A DNA stretch of 64,000 nucleotides from contig JAHBXR010000004.1 in NCBI GenBank assembly GCA_019636335.1, positions 1-64,000 on the forward strand, in the 5' to 3' direction. Position numbers and translations under genes: made by a program. The notes beneath the pieces are model-generated. The model made no database searches. It saw only the letters and a program-made list of their open reading frames with translations, and was not told the origin of the DNA. Within the stretch, counting starts at the first letter, position 1; every line of letters starts with the position of its first letter. Source of the stretch: Pirellulales bacterium. Its GTDB lineage: Bacteria; Planctomycetota; Planctomycetia; Pirellulales; JAEUIK01. Shown piece by piece: positions 37,009 through 45,475 of the stretch.

Positions 37009-37183
37009 CGCGTTGCCCTCCTGGATGAATCCACGGCGTTATTGCTGTCCGCGCGGCCAATGAGCCCCTTTGAAGAACGGTGCTCTCACGCATTCCGGGC
37101 TTCCGTTGGGCGCCCTAGGCTCATGGGCTGCACTGAGTGGAATAAGCCACACCAATGGACCGCGCGTCGCCAGCCGAATCAAG

Positions 37184-37256
<73 letters not shown>

Positions 37257-37402
37257 AATGCTTAAAAATAGGCATTATTAGTGACATTCACGGCGCTGGT
37301 GTCAAATTTGACTCCCGATTTGACACTTGACACCACTGTCGACGCCTCAGTAGTCTTTGTTGGGCCAAAGTTGACATCCGTGAAGCTACAACGTTCGGGT
37401 GC

Positions 37403-38836
37403 ATGGCGCAAACCCTAGAGGAAGTCGACGCCGTGACAAAGTCTACCCTTCCGCCACCGCCCGGCAAAGTACACTTAAAGTACGAGAAGCCGAGCCCAAA
37501 CTTCCCGCTCTTTCCTCATGCCACAGGCCGTTGGGCCAAGAAGATTCGCGGCAAGCTGGTCTACTTCGGACGCATGGCGGACGATCCAACCGGCATTGCG
37601 GCAATCGCTGCATGGCAGAAGTACAACTCCGAATTGCTTGCTGGACGCGGGCTCGATAAAGCAAAGCCAAGGCGGCGTGCCGGCCATCCTGAAAAGCCAT
37701 ACCCTGAGTTCCCGCTGTTCGCGCACGCCACGAAGCGCTGGGCCAAGAAGATTCGCGGAAAGCTGGTCTACTTCGGCCCGTGGGATGACCCCGAAGGCGC
37801 ACTCGCGAAGTACCTAGAGCAGAAGGATGATCTGCACGCCGGCCGCGTGCCGCGCGTTATAGACGGTACGACGATCAAGGATGCGGTCAATGCCTTCCTC
37901 GACGTGAAGGAAGCCAGGCTTACGAATGGCGAACTGTCTCCGCGCTCATTCCGCGACTATCACGCGACGTGTGCGCGGTTGGTTGAATTCTTCGGGCGCA
38001 ATCGACTCGTCGATGACATTCGGTCGGATGACTTTGGACGACTGCGGATCAAGTTGTCTAAGACGCTTGGGGCCGTCTCGCTGGGGAATGAGATCCAGCG
38101 CGTTCGCACCGTGTTCAAGTTCGCCTATGACGACGGCCTGATTGAACGGCCGTTACGCTTCGGCCAGTCGTTTGCCAAGCCGGCTCGGAGTGTGATCCGC
38201 AAGGCCCGCGCCTCAAGTGGCGCGAGAATGTTCGAGGCCGAGGAGATACGCAAGTTGATCGACGAGGCGGGCACACCATTGAAGGCGATGGTCCTGCTAG
38301 CCATCAACTGCGGGTTCGGCCAGTCCGACATAGCCGAGCTTCCGCTGTCGGCCGTCGATTTGACAACCGGCTGGATCGACTTTCCACGCCCAAAGACGGG
38401 TGTACCCCGGCGGTGCCCACTGTGGCCGGAGACAGTTAAGGCACTCAAATCGGCGATCAAGAACCGGCCGGAACCGGCGGATAATGCCGATGGCAACTTC
38501 GTGTTCCTGACGACGTTCGGCCGGCGTTGGGTGCGGACGAAACTAAATGCGAAGGGGGGTATTATCAGCGTCGATTCGGTACTCCTGGAGTTCAAGAAGA
38601 TCATCGTTGCTGCCGACGTCACGCCGCACGGATTTTACGCGTTGCGGCACTCGTTCCGCACCGCGGCCGACGGCGCACGCGACCAGATTGCGGTGGGGCT
38701 CATCATGGGCCATCACGACGAAAGCATGGCAGGGGTCTACCGTGAGCGCGTCGAAGAGGCGCGGCTCAAAGCAGTCACGGACCACGTGCGGCGTTGGCTC
38801 TGGCCCCGCGGTGTCAGGAAGGCGAAAGCGAAGTAG
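37403..38836 (+). CDS. Tyrosine recombinase / integrase with altered active site
   Basis: A 477-residue phage-type integrase. Residues 34-81 and 103-148 are a tandem duplication built around HATxRWAKKIRGKLVYFG, probably a duplicated arm-binding module. The core-binding domain covers about 155-265. In the catalytic domain, Lys331 (PRPKTG), His409, Arg415 (YALRHSF), His437/438 (MGHHDE) and Tyr446 (VYRER) are present. The first Arg, normally in TGLR, is replaced by Gly306 in CGFGQSDIAELP. Related planctomycete integrases appear to share CGFG at this site. It lies next to tRNA-Arg and is the likely recombinase of the element. Confidence 0.9.
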   Translation: MAQTLEEVDAVTKSTLPPPPGKVHLKYEKPSPNFPLFPHATGRWAKKIRGKLVYFGRMADDPTGIAAIAAWQKYNSELLAGRGLDKAKPRRRAGHPEKPYPEFPLFAHATKRWAKKIRGKLVYFGPWDDPEGALAKYLEQKDDLHAGRVPRVIDGTTIKDAVNAFLDVKEARLTNGELSPRSFRDYHATCARLVEFFGRNRLVDDIRSDDFGRLRIKLSKTLGAVSLGNEIQRVRTVFKFAYDDGLIERPLRFGQSFAKPARSVIRKARASSGARMFEAEEIRKLIDEAGTPLKAMVLLAINCGFGQSDIAELPLSAVDLTTGWIDFPRPKTGVPRRCPLWPETVKALKSAIKNRPEPADNADGNFVFLTTFGRRWVRTKLNAKGGIISVDSVLLEFKKIIVAADVTPHGFYALRHSFRTAADGARDQIAVGLIMGHHDESMAGVYRERVEEARLKAVTDHVRRWLWPRGVRKAKAK

Positions 38837-39438: not shown

Positions 39439-42400
39439 TTACGGCATCACGAATCCTGCCGTATTGACCTCTTCTTCGTTGGCTTCGTGGTCGCCCAGGA
39501 TGTCCTGGAACAGGTTGTAGAGGAACCAGTCCAGATCGGTGGCGCCGCCCGTGAGGTTGTCGACTGCCTCATCGTCGAAGACGGTCATGCCGGGAACGAG
39601 GTACGTCGTGCCGTTCGCGCCACCGGGGGCGCCGGTGAGATGCGCCACGCGATCCTCGTAGCTGCCCGCCGAGCTCCACTCGGCGTGGAGGGCCAATAGC
39701 GCCGCGGCATTGAGATCGAAGTTCGTCTTGTCGGCCAGCAAGAGATCCTCGCCGGCCTCTCCCCGGAGCGTGTCGCGGCCAAAGCCGCCCAAAAGGACAT
39801 CGTTGCCCGCGCCGCCGCTGACGCTGTCGTTGCCCGAGCCGCCGCTGAGCACGTCGTTGCCGGCGCCGCCGAGGAGGGTGTCGTTCGACTCGCCGCCATC
39901 GCCGCCGGTGATGAGATCGTGATCGTTTCCGCCGTCGATGAAGTCGTTGCCGTGATGGCCGAAGATCTGGTCGTTGCCGTCGTCGCCGAAGAGACTGTCA
40001 GCGCGTCCTTCGGCGCCGTCGCTGCCGTCGCCCAGGATGGTGTCGTTGCCGCTGCCGCCACGGATGGTGTCCTTGCCCCCTTCCAGGCCATCCCCTTCGA
40101 TCAGGTCATTGCCCGGGCCGCCTGTGATCGAGTCATTCCCTTCGGCGCCATCCCCTTTTGCGCCGACGAACTCGCCGCGGAGGATGTCATCGGCCGCGCC
40201 GCCGATGAGCGTGTCGTGGTGGCGGCCCCCTTCGAGCGTGGCGGAAATGGTCGTCAGCGCGCCGGCATCGAGCCGGTCGTGGCCGGCGTGCCCTCGGCCG
40301 ATGACGCGGCCGGTGACGCCGGAATAGGTTTCAACAACGTTCGTCGCGAAGCCGCCGACCTTCGTCGTGCGGACCTCGACCGCGTGGGCGCCGGTTTGAA
40401 TGAACTCGACGGCGTCGTCGCCGCCGGAGCCTTCCCACTCGAGGTTCGCGCTGACCTGCGCGAGACGCCAGAGGTGGATCGTATGCACGGCGTTCTCGCT
40501 GGCGCCACCATCCTTGTCGGTGGCGCGGACCTGTACACGGAACGAGCCGGCCGTCGTGAACGTGTGACTCACCAGCGTGCCGCTGGGGCCGACGACCGTC
40601 TGGTCGAACGTGCCATTGCCGTCCCAGTCGATCTGGAAGGTAAAGCCGGCGCTCTGATCGACGGACGAGGGATCGGCGGCCGTGAGCACAAAATCCTCGC
40701 TGATGCCCGTCCTCGTCGTCATCGGGCCCGACACGCCCGCGATCGGTGGTGCGTTTACCACGGTGATCTCGACGAACGCGGACGAGGAAAGCGTTCCGAT
40801 GCCATTGTCGGTGACGATGATTTCGATCGAGAACGGATTGGGGCTCACCGACAAGTTTTCGGGCGCTATCCAGGAGATCGTGGCCTGCCGCGCGCCGGGT
40901 CCCGGCGCAATCGTCATGCCGGCCGGAGCCCCGGGGCCCAGGCTGAACGTCAACGTATCGCCCGCGTCGAGGTCGGTCGCCGACACGATCAGGCTCCAAG
41001 GCCCTTCGCCTACCGTCTGCTGGTCGATCGGGTCGAACTGGGGCGCGTCGTTGGGATCGAACTTCCAGATCTCGCGGCCGGTCGTGCCGTCGTTGGCGGC
41101 AAAGTAGAGCGTCCCGCTCACGTTCGTCAGGTACTGCGGATCGGAGCTATTTGAGTTAATAAAAATATCCTTGACGCGGATGGTGCCGGCCGCTGTGCCG
41201 TCGCTCCTCCATAACTCGCGGCCGCTCGTCCCGTCGTCGGCGCTAAAATAGAGCATCCCCCCCACGTTCGTCAGGTGCCGCGGATAGGAGCTACCTACGC
41301 CGGCGCGAATATCCTCGATGCGGATGGTCCCCAGCACCGTGCCGTCGCTCTTCCACAACTCGTGGCCGTTCGCCCCGTCGTCGGCGCTAAAATAGAGGGC
41401 CCCACCCATGTTCGTCAGGTACCGCGGATAGGAACTAGCTGCGCCGGCGCGGATGTCTTTGATCCGTACGGTGCCGGCTTCGGTCCCGTCACTCTTCCAC
41501 AGTTCGCGGCCGTTCAGCCCATCGTCGGCGCTAAAGTAGAGTGCCCCCTCCACATTCGTCAGGTACCGCGGATAGGAATCGCCCGAGCCTGTGTGGATAT
41601 CTTTGACGCGCACGGTGCCGGCCTCGGTCCCGTCGCTCTTCCATAACTCGCGGCCGTTCGTGCCATCGGTGGCGCTGAAGTAGAGTGTCCCCCCGACGTT
41701 TGTCAGGTACCGCGGAAAGGAGTTGCCTGATCCAATGAAGATGTCTTTGATACGTACGGTGCCGGCCTCGGTTCCATCACTCTTCCACAACTCGAAGCCG
41801 TTCGTGCCATCGGTGGCGCTGAAGTAGAGAGTTCCTCCCACGTTCGTCAGGTACCGCGGATAGGAACTACCAGAGCCGGCGTGGATGTCCTTGATGCGTA
41901 CAGTGCCGGCCTCGGTCCCGTCGCTCTTCCAGAGCTCAGAGTTGTTCGCCTCGGCTGTGGCGCTGAAGTAGAGGGTTCCCCCCACATTCGTCAGGTTACC
42001 CGGATAGGAGCTACCTGAACCGGCGTGGATATCCTTGACGCGCACGGTGCCGGCCTCGGTCCCGTCACTCTTCCACAGTTCGCGGCCGTTTGTGCCATCG
42101 TTGGCGCTGAAGTAAAGGATTCCCCCCACGTTCGTCAGGTTACCCGGATAGGAGCTACCTGAACCGGCGTGGATATCCTTGACGCGCACGGTGCCGGCCT
42201 CGGTCCCGTCGCTCTTCCATAACTCGCGGCCGTTCGTGCCATCGTGGGCGCTGAAGTAAAGGGCTCCCCCCACGTTCGTCAGGTTATTCGGATAGGAGTT
42301 GCTTGCGCCGGCGTGGATATCTTTGACGCGGACAGTATCGACCTCGATCCCGTGGAGCTTCCACAACTCCACGCCACGCATCCCGTCGTCGGCGCTGAAG

Positions 42401-44922
42401 TAGAGGGTTCCTCCCACGCTCGTCAGGTCCCATGGAGAGGAGCTACCTGGTCCGACGAAGATATCCTTGACGAGAACGGTTCCGGCTTCGGTCCCATCGC
42501 TCCTCCACAACTCGATGCCGTTCGTACCGTCACCTGCGCGGAAGTAGAGCGTTCCTCCCACGTTCGTCAGGGTATTCGGAGAAGAACCAGCAGAACCGGG
42601 GTAGATATCCTTGACACGGACGGTGCCGGCCTCGGTCCCGTCGCTCTTCCACACTTCGATGCCGTGCGTGCCATCGTCGGCGGTAAAGTAGAGCGTCCCC
42701 CCCACGTCTGTCAGGTCCCACGGAGAGGAATTATTGGGTCCGGCGTAGATATCTTTGACGCGGAGGGTTCCGGCCTCGGTGCCGTCGCTCTTCCACAACT
42801 CGACGCCGTTCGTGCCATCGATGGCAACAAAGTAGAGCGTCCCCCCCACGTTCGTCAGGAAGCGAGGATTGGAGCCATCCGGTCCGGCGAAGATATCCTT
42901 GACGCGCACGGTGCCGGCCTCGGTGCCGTTGCTCTCCCACAGCTCGATGCCATTCGTGCCATTGGTGGCGCTGAAATAGAGTGTACCTCCCACGTTCGTG
43001 AGGTACCTCGGAAAGGAGCTATTTGAACCGGCGAAGATATCCTTGACGCGCACGGTGCCGGTCGCGGTCCCATTGCTCTTCCACAACTCGCGGCCGTTCG
43101 TGCCATCGTGGGCGCTGAAGTAGAGCGTCCCCCCCACGTTCATGAAGTTACTTGGATCGGAGCCACCCGATCCGGCGAGGATATCCTTGACGCGCACGGT
43201 CCCAGACTCGGTGCCGTCGCTCTTCCACAACTCGGTGCCGCTCGTCCCGTCGTTGGCGGTGAAGTAGAGGGTCCCCCCCACGTTCGTCAGGTTACCCGGA
43301 TTGGAGCTATTTGAGCCGGCGAAGATATCCTTGACGCGCACGGTGCCGGCCTCGGTCCCGTCGCTCTTCCATAACTCGCGGCCGTTCGTGCCATCGTGGG
43401 CGCTGAAGTAAAGGGTTCCCCCCACGTTCGTCAGGTTATTCGGAAAGGAGCCATCTGATCCGGCGACGATATCCTTGACACGGACGGTGCCGGCCTCGGT
43501 CCCATCGCTCTTCCACAACTCGGTGCCGCTCGTCCCGTCGTTGGCGCGGAAGTAGAGCGTCCCCCCCACGTTCGTCAGGTACCGCGGATCGGAGCTATTT
43601 GAGCCGGCGAAGATATCCTTGACGCGGACGGTGCCGGCCTCGGTCCCGTCGCTTCTCCACAACTCGAAGCCATTCGTGCCATCGAAGGCGCGGAAGTAGA
43701 GCGTTCCTCCCACGTTCGTCAGGTTACTCGACCCGGAGGAATTACCAAATCCGGCGAAGATATCCTTGACGCGCATGGTGCCGGACTCGGTGCCGTTGCT
43801 CTTCCACAACTCGACGCCAGCCGCCTCGTCAAGAGCGGTGAAGTAGAGCGTTCCCCCCACATTCGTCAGGTTCGACGGGTAGGAGCTACCTTGTCCGGTG
43901 ACGATGTCCTTGACGATTACGGTGCTGGCTACGGTCCCGTTGGTCCTTAACAACTCAATGCCCAGCCCGGTAAGCGCGGTGAAGTAGAGCGTTCCCCCCA
44001 TGTCCGTCAGGTTACCCGGAGAGGAGCTCATTGAGTCGCCGGTGAAATCGATGAAGATGACCGTGCCGGCCTCGGTCCCATCGCTCTTCCACAACTCGCG
44101 GCCGAACGTGCTATGAAAGGCGGTGAAGTAGAGGGTCCCCCCCGCGTTCGTCAAGTTATCCGGAAGGGAGCCACCTGATCCAGCGACGATATCCTTGACA
44201 CGGACGGTGCCGGCCTCGGTCCCATCGCTCTTCCACAACTCGCGGTTACCCACGAGAAGCAGTTCATCCGCTACATCCCCGGCGGTGAAGTAGAGAGTCC
44301 CGCTCACATTCGTCAGTTTACTCGGAAGGGAGTTATTTATTCCGGGGAAGATATCCTTGACACGGACGGTGCCGGCCTCGGTCCCATCGCTCTTCCACAA
44401 CTCGGTACCGTGCGTCTCATCAAAGGCGGTGAAGTAGAGCGTCCCCCCCACGTTCGTCAAGTTACTCGGACCGGAGCCACCTGATCCGGCGACGATATCC
44501 TTGACACGGACGGTGCCGGCCTCGGTCCCGTCGCTCTTCCACAGCTCAACGCCGCTCGTGCCATCGTCGGCGCTGAAGTAGAGCGTCCCCCCTAGGTTCG
44601 TCAGGTATCGCGGATCGGAATGATCTGATCCAGCGCGGATATCCTTGACGCGGACGGTGCCGGCCTCGGTCCCGTCGCTCTTCCACAACTCAAAGCCGCT
44701 TGCGCCATCGTAGGCGGTGAAGTAGAGCGTGCCTCCGACTTCGACGAACCGTAATGGGCTCGAACCAAGTCCTACTGCATTGATGTCTCTCACCATCTCG
44801 GGCGTGGCGGATAAGAGCCGGCGATCTTCAAGGGGTTCGAGCCCTGACTGACGCGAGATAGTCGATAGAGTCGCGCGGCAAAAACCCCCAGAGCGCCGCT
44901 GAGCATGCCTTCGATACCGCAT
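39439..44922 (-). CDS. Giant surface protein: LEPR-XLL, 26 ELWKSDGT repeats, cadherin/PKD and RTX repeats
   Basis: About 1827 residues. The ATG at 44922 (AAAGGTG upstream) is preferred to the GTG at 44931. GLEPLEDRRLLSA near residue 27 is the planctomycete LEPR-XLL-type N-terminus. Residues 55-1285 hold 26 units of about 48 residues, each GGTLYFSADDGTNGRELWKS followed by DGTEAGTVRVKDI and a variable Ser/Asn loop. Then come a cadherin-like domain (DAGDTLTFSLGPGAPAGMTI), a PKD-like domain (FQIDWDGNGTFD) and RTX calcium-binding nonapeptides (GGAGNDVLSGGSGNDSVSGG). It is probably a secreted adhesive or structural protein that folds with calcium. It is the main cargo of the element between the tRNA copies. 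Confidence 0.93.
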   Translation of the reverse strand: MRYRRHAQRRSGGFCRATLSTISRQSGLEPLEDRRLLSATPEMVRDINAVGLGSSPLRFVEVGGTLYFTAYDGASGFELWKSDGTEAGTVRVKDIRAGSDHSDPRYLTNLGGTLYFSADDGTSGVELWKSDGTEAGTVRVKDIVAGSGGSGPSNLTNVGGTLYFTAFDETHGTELWKSDGTEAGTVRVKDIFPGINNSLPSKLTNVSGTLYFTAGDVADELLLVGNRELWKSDGTEAGTVRVKDIVAGSGGSLPDNLTNAGGTLYFTAFHSTFGRELWKSDGTEAGTVIFIDFTGDSMSSSPGNLTDMGGTLYFTALTGLGIELLRTNGTVASTVIVKDIVTGQGSSYPSNLTNVGGTLYFTALDEAAGVELWKSNGTESGTMRVKDIFAGFGNSSGSSNLTNVGGTLYFRAFDGTNGFELWRSDGTEAGTVRVKDIFAGSNSSDPRYLTNVGGTLYFRANDGTSGTELWKSDGTEAGTVRVKDIVAGSDGSFPNNLTNVGGTLYFSAHDGTNGRELWKSDGTEAGTVRVKDIFAGSNSSNPGNLTNVGGTLYFTANDGTSGTELWKSDGTESGTVRVKDILAGSGGSDPSNFMNVGGTLYFSAHDGTNGRELWKSNGTATGTVRVKDIFAGSNSSFPRYLTNVGGTLYFSATNGTNGIELWESNGTEAGTVRVKDIFAGPDGSNPRFLTNVGGTLYFVAIDGTNGVELWKSDGTEAGTLRVKDIYAGPNNSSPWDLTDVGGTLYFTADDGTHGIEVWKSDGTEAGTVRVKDIYPGSAGSSPNTLTNVGGTLYFRAGDGTNGIELWRSDGTEAGTVLVKDIFVGPGSSSPWDLTSVGGTLYFSADDGMRGVELWKLHGIEVDTVRVKDIHAGASNSYPNNLTNVGGALYFSAHDGTNGRELWKSDGTEAGTVRVKDIHAGSGSSYPGNLTNVGGILYFSANDGTNGRELWKSDGTEAGTVRVKDIHAGSGSSYPGNLTNVGGTLYFSATAEANNSELWKSDGTEAGTVRIKDIHAGSGSSYPRYLTNVGGTLYFSATDGTNGFELWKSDGTEAGTVRIKDIFIGSGNSFPRYLTNVGGTLYFSATDGTNGRELWKSDGTEAGTVRVKDIHTGSGDSYPRYLTNVEGALYFSADDGLNGRELWKSDGTEAGTVRIKDIRAGAASSYPRYLTNMGGALYFSADDGANGHELWKSDGTVLGTIRIEDIRAGVGSSYPRHLTNVGGMLYFSADDGTSGRELWRSDGTAAGTIRVKDIFINSNSSDPQYLTNVSGTLYFAANDGTTGREIWKFDPNDAPQFDPIDQQTVGEGPWSLIVSATDLDAGDTLTFSLGPGAPAGMTIAPGPGARQATISWIAPENLSVSPNPFSIEIIVTDNGIGTLSSSAFVEITVVNAPPIAGVSGPMTTRTGISEDFVLTAADPSSVDQSAGFTFQIDWDGNGTFDQTVVGPSGTLVSHTFTTAGSFRVQVRATDKDGGASENAVHTIHLWRLAQVSANLEWEGSGGDDAVEFIQTGAHAVEVRTTKVGGFATNVVETYSGVTGRVIGRGHAGHDRLDAGALTTISATLEGGRHHDTLIGGAADDILRGEFVGAKGDGAEGNDSITGGPGNDLIEGDGLEGGKDTIRGGSGNDTILGDGSDGAEGRADSLFGDDGNDQIFGHHGNDFIDGGNDHDLITGGDGGESNDTLLGGAGNDVLSGGSGNDSVSGGAGNDVLLGGFGRDTLRGEAGEDLLLADKTNFDLNAAALLALHAEWSSAGSYEDRVAHLTGAPGGANGTTYLVPGMTVFDDEAVDNLTGGATDLDWFLYNLFQDILGDHEANEEEVNTAGFVMP
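41060..44750 (-). repeat. Tandem 144-bp repeats in the giant protein gene
   Basis: About 25 full and one partial unit of roughly 144 bp. Many units share near-identical blocks, for example TCGGTCCCGTCGCTCTTCCA and TTCCCCCCACGTTCGTCAGG with little change. The variable zone encodes the Ser/Asn-rich loop after KDI. This much nucleotide identity points to recent duplication or gene conversion between units rather than to protein selection alone. Confidence 0.9.
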
Positions 44923-45462
44923 TGGAAACACCTTTGTTGGTCAATGGTGTAGCGCTATGCGACGCCGACTCGTGCGTCGCCCGACCGCATGGAGAATACT
45001 GATACTGCGCAGATGACTGCCCCAACCCGGGCGGCAGGGCAACGGCGCCACGCCGCGGTCAGGCTCCCTCGCGCTCCAGACGCCTCGCCCTGCCGCGCCG
45101 ACACTGGCTAATGCTTAATCCGGAAGAATCTCCCCGCCATCCACCGCGGAACGAACATTTTGAGGCAAAAAAGCCTCGTCCGTAGAATCCGTGGGGGGAA
45201 TACCAGATGTACGTGGGCTTCCTGCGCTGCGGAGGCCAGGGCTTGCGAGCCGTGGAGCTACTGGGAGACGGTGTGTGACGCGGCCTGAAACAGGCGCCGT
45301 CTCGTCCCACATTCGGCCTTCGGCCGACTGGGCTGCATCCGTGCGACGGGCAAGTAATGCGGCGGTCACACCGGCGAAATGCGCCACATCCGCTCGTTCT
45401 TGATGGATTGCGCCTCGCGCAGCAGAGCAAATCTCTGTAGCACCTGCTTGAACTTCTCTCCC
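44923..45462. other. Distal noncoding end of the element
   Basis: About 540 bases with no convincing gene. The minus-strand promoter of the giant protein should be here. A short GAGGC/GCCTC hairpin lies at 45162-45177. A minus-strand frame ending at 45366 carries a protein-like tail (KFKQVLQRFALLREAQSIKN), which could be a decayed gene end, but nothing recognisable precedes it. Confidence 0.4.
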
Positions 45463-45475
45463 GAGCTACAGGCGC
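45463..45475 (+). repeat. Putative attachment site attR (copy of the tRNA-Arg 5' end)
   Basis: GAGCTACAGGCGC, identical to 37244-37256 and in direct orientation, lies 27 bases before the end of the acyl-CoA dehydrogenase gene. The sequence on its left does not form the rest of a tRNA. The spacing of the two copies is 8.2 kb. Confidence 0.5.

Follow-up and report, generated by a model that had tools for sequence, protein, structure and literature searches.

Whether a tyrosine integrase that lacks its first catalytic arginine (RI) is a damaged gene or an enzyme with a rebuilt active site is the question raised by a protein encoded in the window, a 64,000-nucleotide stretch of a Pirellulales bacterium contig. 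RI is usually treated as indispensable in integrase annotation. The protein matched PF00589 (E = 2.1e-12; 47.6 bits compared with a curated cut-off of 27.1), the sole family detected in the Pfam scan, and its AlphaFold2 model had a mean pLDDT of 90.8. Comparison of structures using VIA-align revealed matches to the integrases of lambda (1z1g_B; Z 17.9, rmsd 7.7, 299 aligned) and Tn1549 (6emz_A; Z 17.2, rmsd 3.2, 260 aligned), with which it shares the fold and the arm-binding, core-binding and catalytic layout. Unlike the proteins described here, lambda integrase carries RI and the first His of the active site. The Tn1549 integrase likewise keeps both, as R225 and H344 in an excerpt of PMC5871717. 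The window protein is a lambda-like tyrosine integrase and a member of a planctomycete family; its source genome contained 18 PF00589 matches in all and no second relative of the integrase at E <= 0.001. The positions of the gene, its residues and the neighbouring features are given in Table 1.

Table 1. Features of the integrase locus and their positions in the window
Feature	Position	Strand	Basis or detail
Tyrosine integrase gene, 477 aa	37403-38836	+	core-binding and catalytic domains preceded by two N-terminal modules
First N-terminal module, residues 30-82	37490-37648	+	profile match 1e-22
Second N-terminal module, residues 99-148; matches the module adjoining the core-binding domain in single-module relatives	37697-37846	+	profile match 5.6e-31
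Gly306 codon, RI position	38318-38320	+	alignments
Arg329 codon, two residues N-terminal of Lys331; proposed RI substitute	38387-38389	+	conservation
Lys331 codon, catalytic Lys, beta2-beta3 hairpin	38393-38395	+	aligns with Xer Lys
Tyr412 codon, first His (HxxR) position	38636-38638	+	aligns with His of XerD/XerA
Codons of Arg415 (38645-38647), His437 (38711-38713) and nucleophile Tyr446 (38738-38740)	38645-38740	+	conservation in relatives
Candidate arm-type sites	37298-37378	.	GGTGTCA 37298-37304, TGACTCC 37309-37315, TGACACT 37321-37327, TGACACC 37328-37334, TGACATC 37372-37378
tRNA-Arg(CCT), 5' end toward the integrase gene	37183-37256	-	ARAGORN
Putative attL core, tRNA nt 1-40 (reaching from the 5' end to shortly beyond the anticodon loop)	37217-37256	-	analogy with repeats at other loci
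Candidate decayed attR, a 13-bp exact match to tRNA nt 1-13	45463-45475	-	downstream repeat search
Gene for an 1830-aa protein (ELWKSDGTEAGT repeats, PKD, RTX repeats), probably the inferred element's cargo	39439-44931	-	between integrase gene and candidate attR

Profile alignment with XerA and XerD placed Gly306 opposite the Arg of the 'TGVR'/'TGLR' motif, and alignment with other recombinases from the same genome placed it in their RI column as well, in agreement with the initial annotation. The Xer alignment also matched Lys331 with the hairpin Lys, and Arg415, His437 and Tyr446 with the usual partners. The initial annotation had listed the Lys, both His, the Arg and the Tyr as kept; this held for Lys331, Arg415, His437 and Tyr446 and failed for the first His, since its column, three residues before Arg415, is occupied by Tyr412 (His409 lies six residues before Arg415). 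Two of the six canonical active-site positions therefore differ (Gly306 and Tyr412), and a check of the PF00589 hallmarks gave the same result, with the other four present and RI and the first His absent.

The family search covered 392 genomes of the phylum, 40 relatives, a genome_contigs scan (80 of 202 relatives retained) and a viral_contigs scan (24 loci), with viral locus L153 omitted as it had no qualifying ORF. Ten rows were left out before counting, namely proteins that duplicated another exactly and the copy from the window. The family set consisted of 143 distinct sequences including the window (142 relatives), some of them fragmentary and not independent, and conservation was counted over relatives with a letter in the column, leaving out the window. 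Alignment of the planctomycete integrases, a check envisaged in the initial annotation, revealed Gly at the RI column in 118/134 relatives and Arg in none of the 134. Lys331 was present in 135/135 relatives, Arg415 in 130/133, and His437 and Tyr446 in 126/130 each, while position 412 was Tyr in 116/135. A control alignment of 43 recombinases, drawn from the same genome and related ones, showed RI in 41, the remaining two being incomplete ORFs. Judged from these alignments, the missing RI is a family trait and no defect of a single gene.

The alignments also point to a residue that could take the place of RI. Arg329, which lies between strands 324-326 and 337-339 of the AlphaFold2 model, was Arg in 135/135 relatives, and distant RI-less members (18-26% identity) had Thr, Asn, Gly or other residues at the RI position and Arg-x-Lys in every case. 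An Arg two residues before the Lys was also present in 12 of the 39 controls bearing RI and Lys, mostly Xer-like enzymes, and is thus non-diagnostic. The main argument for Arg329 is an association only: this Arg is variable among enzymes with RI and fixed among those without it. On conservation, Arg329 is the best candidate for an RI substitute. Arg336 or Arg337, suggested in the initial annotation, are less likely, because Arg336 aligns with the ordinary KxR Arg of the RI-bearing XerD and XerA, and position 337 is Arg in 109/137 sequences.

The loss of RI is a likeness to the IntCTnDOT subgroup of integrases, and the invariant Arg329 downstream may correspond to the substitute Arg of the CTnDOT integrase. 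The equivalence in position is our assumption: we take that substitute to be R285, two residues before K287 and at the same spacing as Arg329 and Lys331. The experiment behind functional Arg substitution in the CTnDOT integrase is reportedly that of Kim et al. in 2010. An excerpt of PMC8138268 describes the CTnDOT, ERL and Tn5520 integrases as lacking RI, with a downstream Arg substituting in the CTnDOT enzyme. Unlike this subgroup, the window family also lacks the first His, and the half of the tRNA gene used by its elements is the 5' one. PF17293 (Arm-DNA-bind_5, the IntCTnDOT arm domain) was absent from the N-terminus of the window integrase and from all 294 planctomycete genomes scanned; a Bacteroides control was positive. 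Section 14 of PMC8138268 describes the IntDes subgroup, with the first Arg 'shifted' and the first His changed to Tyr, as confined to Desulfovibrio and without an assigned function. By that published description, the window family resembles IntDes in the Tyr at the first His and probably in the displaced first Arg.

We also examined the N-terminal modules, which the initial annotation had attributed to a recent internal duplication. The repeat on which this was based was reproduced (37535-37569 recurs at 37742-37776, 34/35 identical with one mismatch), and the two-module architecture is real, occurring in 7 of 132 module-bearing proteins, the window counted. The recent date was rejected. The window's modules were 63% identical overall and used the same codon in 19/36 identical residues, and module mates (42-63% identical) were never nearest neighbours in the tree, with tree-distance ranks of 18 to 119 among 138; modules of different proteins shared a median identity of 53%. 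A 42-bp block matched at 39/42 positions between the window's modules, at 39/42 to relative L074 and at 38/42 to L109 and L082. The near-identical block is thus explained by conservation of protein and codons and not by a recent copy, and short gene conversion between the window's modules may also have occurred.

The tally of neighbouring tRNA genes took in the genome_contigs loci with 400 bp or more of sequence upstream of the integrase gene (n = 77; shorter loci left out). A tRNA gene was located within 1.5 kb in 69 of these, pointing its 5' end at the integrase gene in 67 and oriented the other way in 2, and no tRNA gene was found within this distance in the remaining 8. Many isotypes were represented. 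Among loci other than the window's, 14 were searched for 80 kb, and every one had a copy of approximately tRNA nt 1-40 (attR) downstream on the same strand, so that each displayed a restored tRNA and a displaced fragment in the same orientation, the fragment being the 5' half. The repeats were exact over 39-48 bp (with a single mismatch at L006) and were positioned 5.6-70 kb downstream. A 5'-half repeat was likewise present at L129 (26.6 kb searched), and L103 carried a 42-bp repeat 3.6 kb downstream, the sole case among 109 short-flank loci examined. No attR was found at L076, L022, L031, L114, L025 and L104 within the 13.0-25.3 kb searched.

Four viral contigs (L132, L133, L135 and L138) carried a tRNA 5' half without a 3' half adjoining the integrase gene, with 34-38/40 matches at nt 1-40 and 8-12 of 33-34 beyond, an arrangement that appears attP-like; genome locus L059 displayed the same pattern. 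At L083, L147, L013 and L021, a tRNA 3' half starting from about nt 29-33 was found beside the integrase gene with no recognisable 5' half, and these loci may be integrations that left the tRNA unrestored. In combination with the 5'-half repeats, these 3' halves bracket the exchange to the anticodon loop. The initial annotation had proposed that the arginine function is supplied elsewhere in the clade or that the enzyme is impaired. The former fits a family in which no relative has Arg at RI and attR copies accompany all 14 loci searched for 80 kb. Impairment does not fit the family, because most relatives share the Gly and attachment-site footprints were present at every one of these loci; on such footprints the family looks active.

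The polarity of this arrangement is apparently unusual, in that the element brings along the front half of the tRNA gene and not its back half. The Islander figures available to us give 3760 islands with 3' fragments and 159 with 5' fragments (total 3919), and an excerpt of PMC8371274 describes the 5' arrangement as confined, among archaea, to pTN3-like integrases and as seldom seen in bacteria. The excerpt gives the pTN3-like attB as the tRNA 5' half, with expression of the restored tRNA coming from the side of the integrase. The window family is like these integrases in its 5'-half attB, by description only, and unlike them in that pTN3-like integrases are an archaeal plasmid family. Because of the reversed polarity, it is the element, rather than its host, that provides the upstream region of an essential tRNA gene, and such elements could control host tRNA expression. 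Examination of the gap between tRNA and integrase gene identified no promoter-like sites within 37100-37480 of the window, and TATAAT-like boxes were at shuffle level (25/102 gaps compared with 26 in shuffles). A tRNA promoter inside the gap is unsupported, and with no promoter motif there, that the element controls the tRNA is something we can only infer. The gaps were rich in a short repeat: exact TGACACC was present in 43/102, at 1.15 per gap compared with 0.023 in shuffles, and 27 pairs were spaced 12 bp. Variant repeats were found in the gap at other loci. TGACACC-type repeats are probably bound by the N-terminal modules.

A 13-bp match such as the window's candidate attR, within 8 kb downstream, was obtained for 338 of 43,750 contig positions (0.8%), and as a 40-nt local alignment the candidate attR scored no better than chance, with 58/200 random 40-mers scoring equally high. 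By analogy with the family, it is a probable attR given the shared pattern and its exact anchoring at tRNA nt 1. We infer an old, decayed element of about 8.2 kb (37.2-45.5 kb) carrying one giant repeat protein. The neighbourhood of the flanking acyl-CoA dehydrogenase gene was also considered as an empty site; it matched in three relatives, in each without a nearby tRNA, and no empty site was found among them. To the left of the tRNA, 37042-37146 is a short dispersed repeat with an 83% match at C4:142054-142136, the neighbourhood of which recurs elsewhere in the genome as some 15 more partial copies. This match was rejected as an att site, being a dispersed repeat with many partial genomic copies.

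We propose, with a probability of roughly 0.7, the following account of these features. The active site would have been rebuilt, Gly taking the place of RI and Tyr that of the first His, and Arg329 would give the scissile phosphate the positive charge that normally comes from RI. The N-terminal modules would bind the TGACACC-type short direct repeats between the tRNA gene and the integrase gene, and the catalytic domain would recombine within the anticodon-loop part of the tRNA gene. It is unlikely that RI is simply dispensable, with Arg415, Lys331 and His437 sufficing or with Asn302, Trp341 or another Arg such as Arg336 compensating. Arg329 is not the sole family-wide residue, as Asn302 (133/134), Trp341 (136/137) and Arg336 (130/136) are also conserved; however, RI-bearing Xer enzymes share the aligned Arg336, and there is a precedent in the CTnDOT integrase, where, as excerpted above, an Arg further downstream substitutes.

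Catalytically dead regulators with a recombinase fold, such as the phage repressors SroF or MrpR, would also explain the lost RI, and entries for both were among the structural matches of the integrase. We regard this as very improbable for the family, since the nucleophile Tyr and its Lys, Arg and His partners are retained in >96% of relatives with a letter and the gene is placed at the attL/attP-like sites of elements. A more serious concern, which we still consider the lesser prospect, is that the window integrase is a relic, a non-working member of a working family. Its candidate attR is down to 13 bp and a single large protein gene takes up most of the remaining inferred element, but the ORF is intact and all family-conserved catalytic positions are present. 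We favour a rebuilt active site with Arg329 in place of RI, and the window enzyme may be active at present.

The scanned ORFs of small elements carried by relatives included DnaB helicases, a D5-type primase, capsid proteins (one with an S49 peptidase fusion) and a terminase, so at least some of the elements are prophage- or satellite-like. No recombinase family other than the query-type integrase was identified in the scanned ORFs of three elements. It is quite probable that the family is a new integrase subfamily serving prophages, satellites and islands; the parts of the literature covered by our searches contained no description of it. Searches of named phage (50,697) and plasmid (72,556) records yielded zero relatives at E 1e-5, so named collections teach little about this family. 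A large RI-less family with recombination footprints throughout means that genes of this kind should not be annotated as dead, and provides a natural experiment on ways of holding the scissile phosphate. It also gives a search rule for planctomycete prophages and satellites, namely a 40-nt 5' tRNA fragment downstream of a divergent integrase. Capsid proteins, one of them S49 peptidase-fused, were encoded at L259:13028-15484 and L215:12607-14646, within tRNA-bounded elements of 8-10 kb, which suggests that these two elements are planctomycete phage satellites. Relatives were also present in contigs titled Nitrospira (L069), Nealsonbacteria (L074), Verrucomicrobia (L101) and Robiginitomaculum (L128), reflecting either transfer or misbinned contigs.
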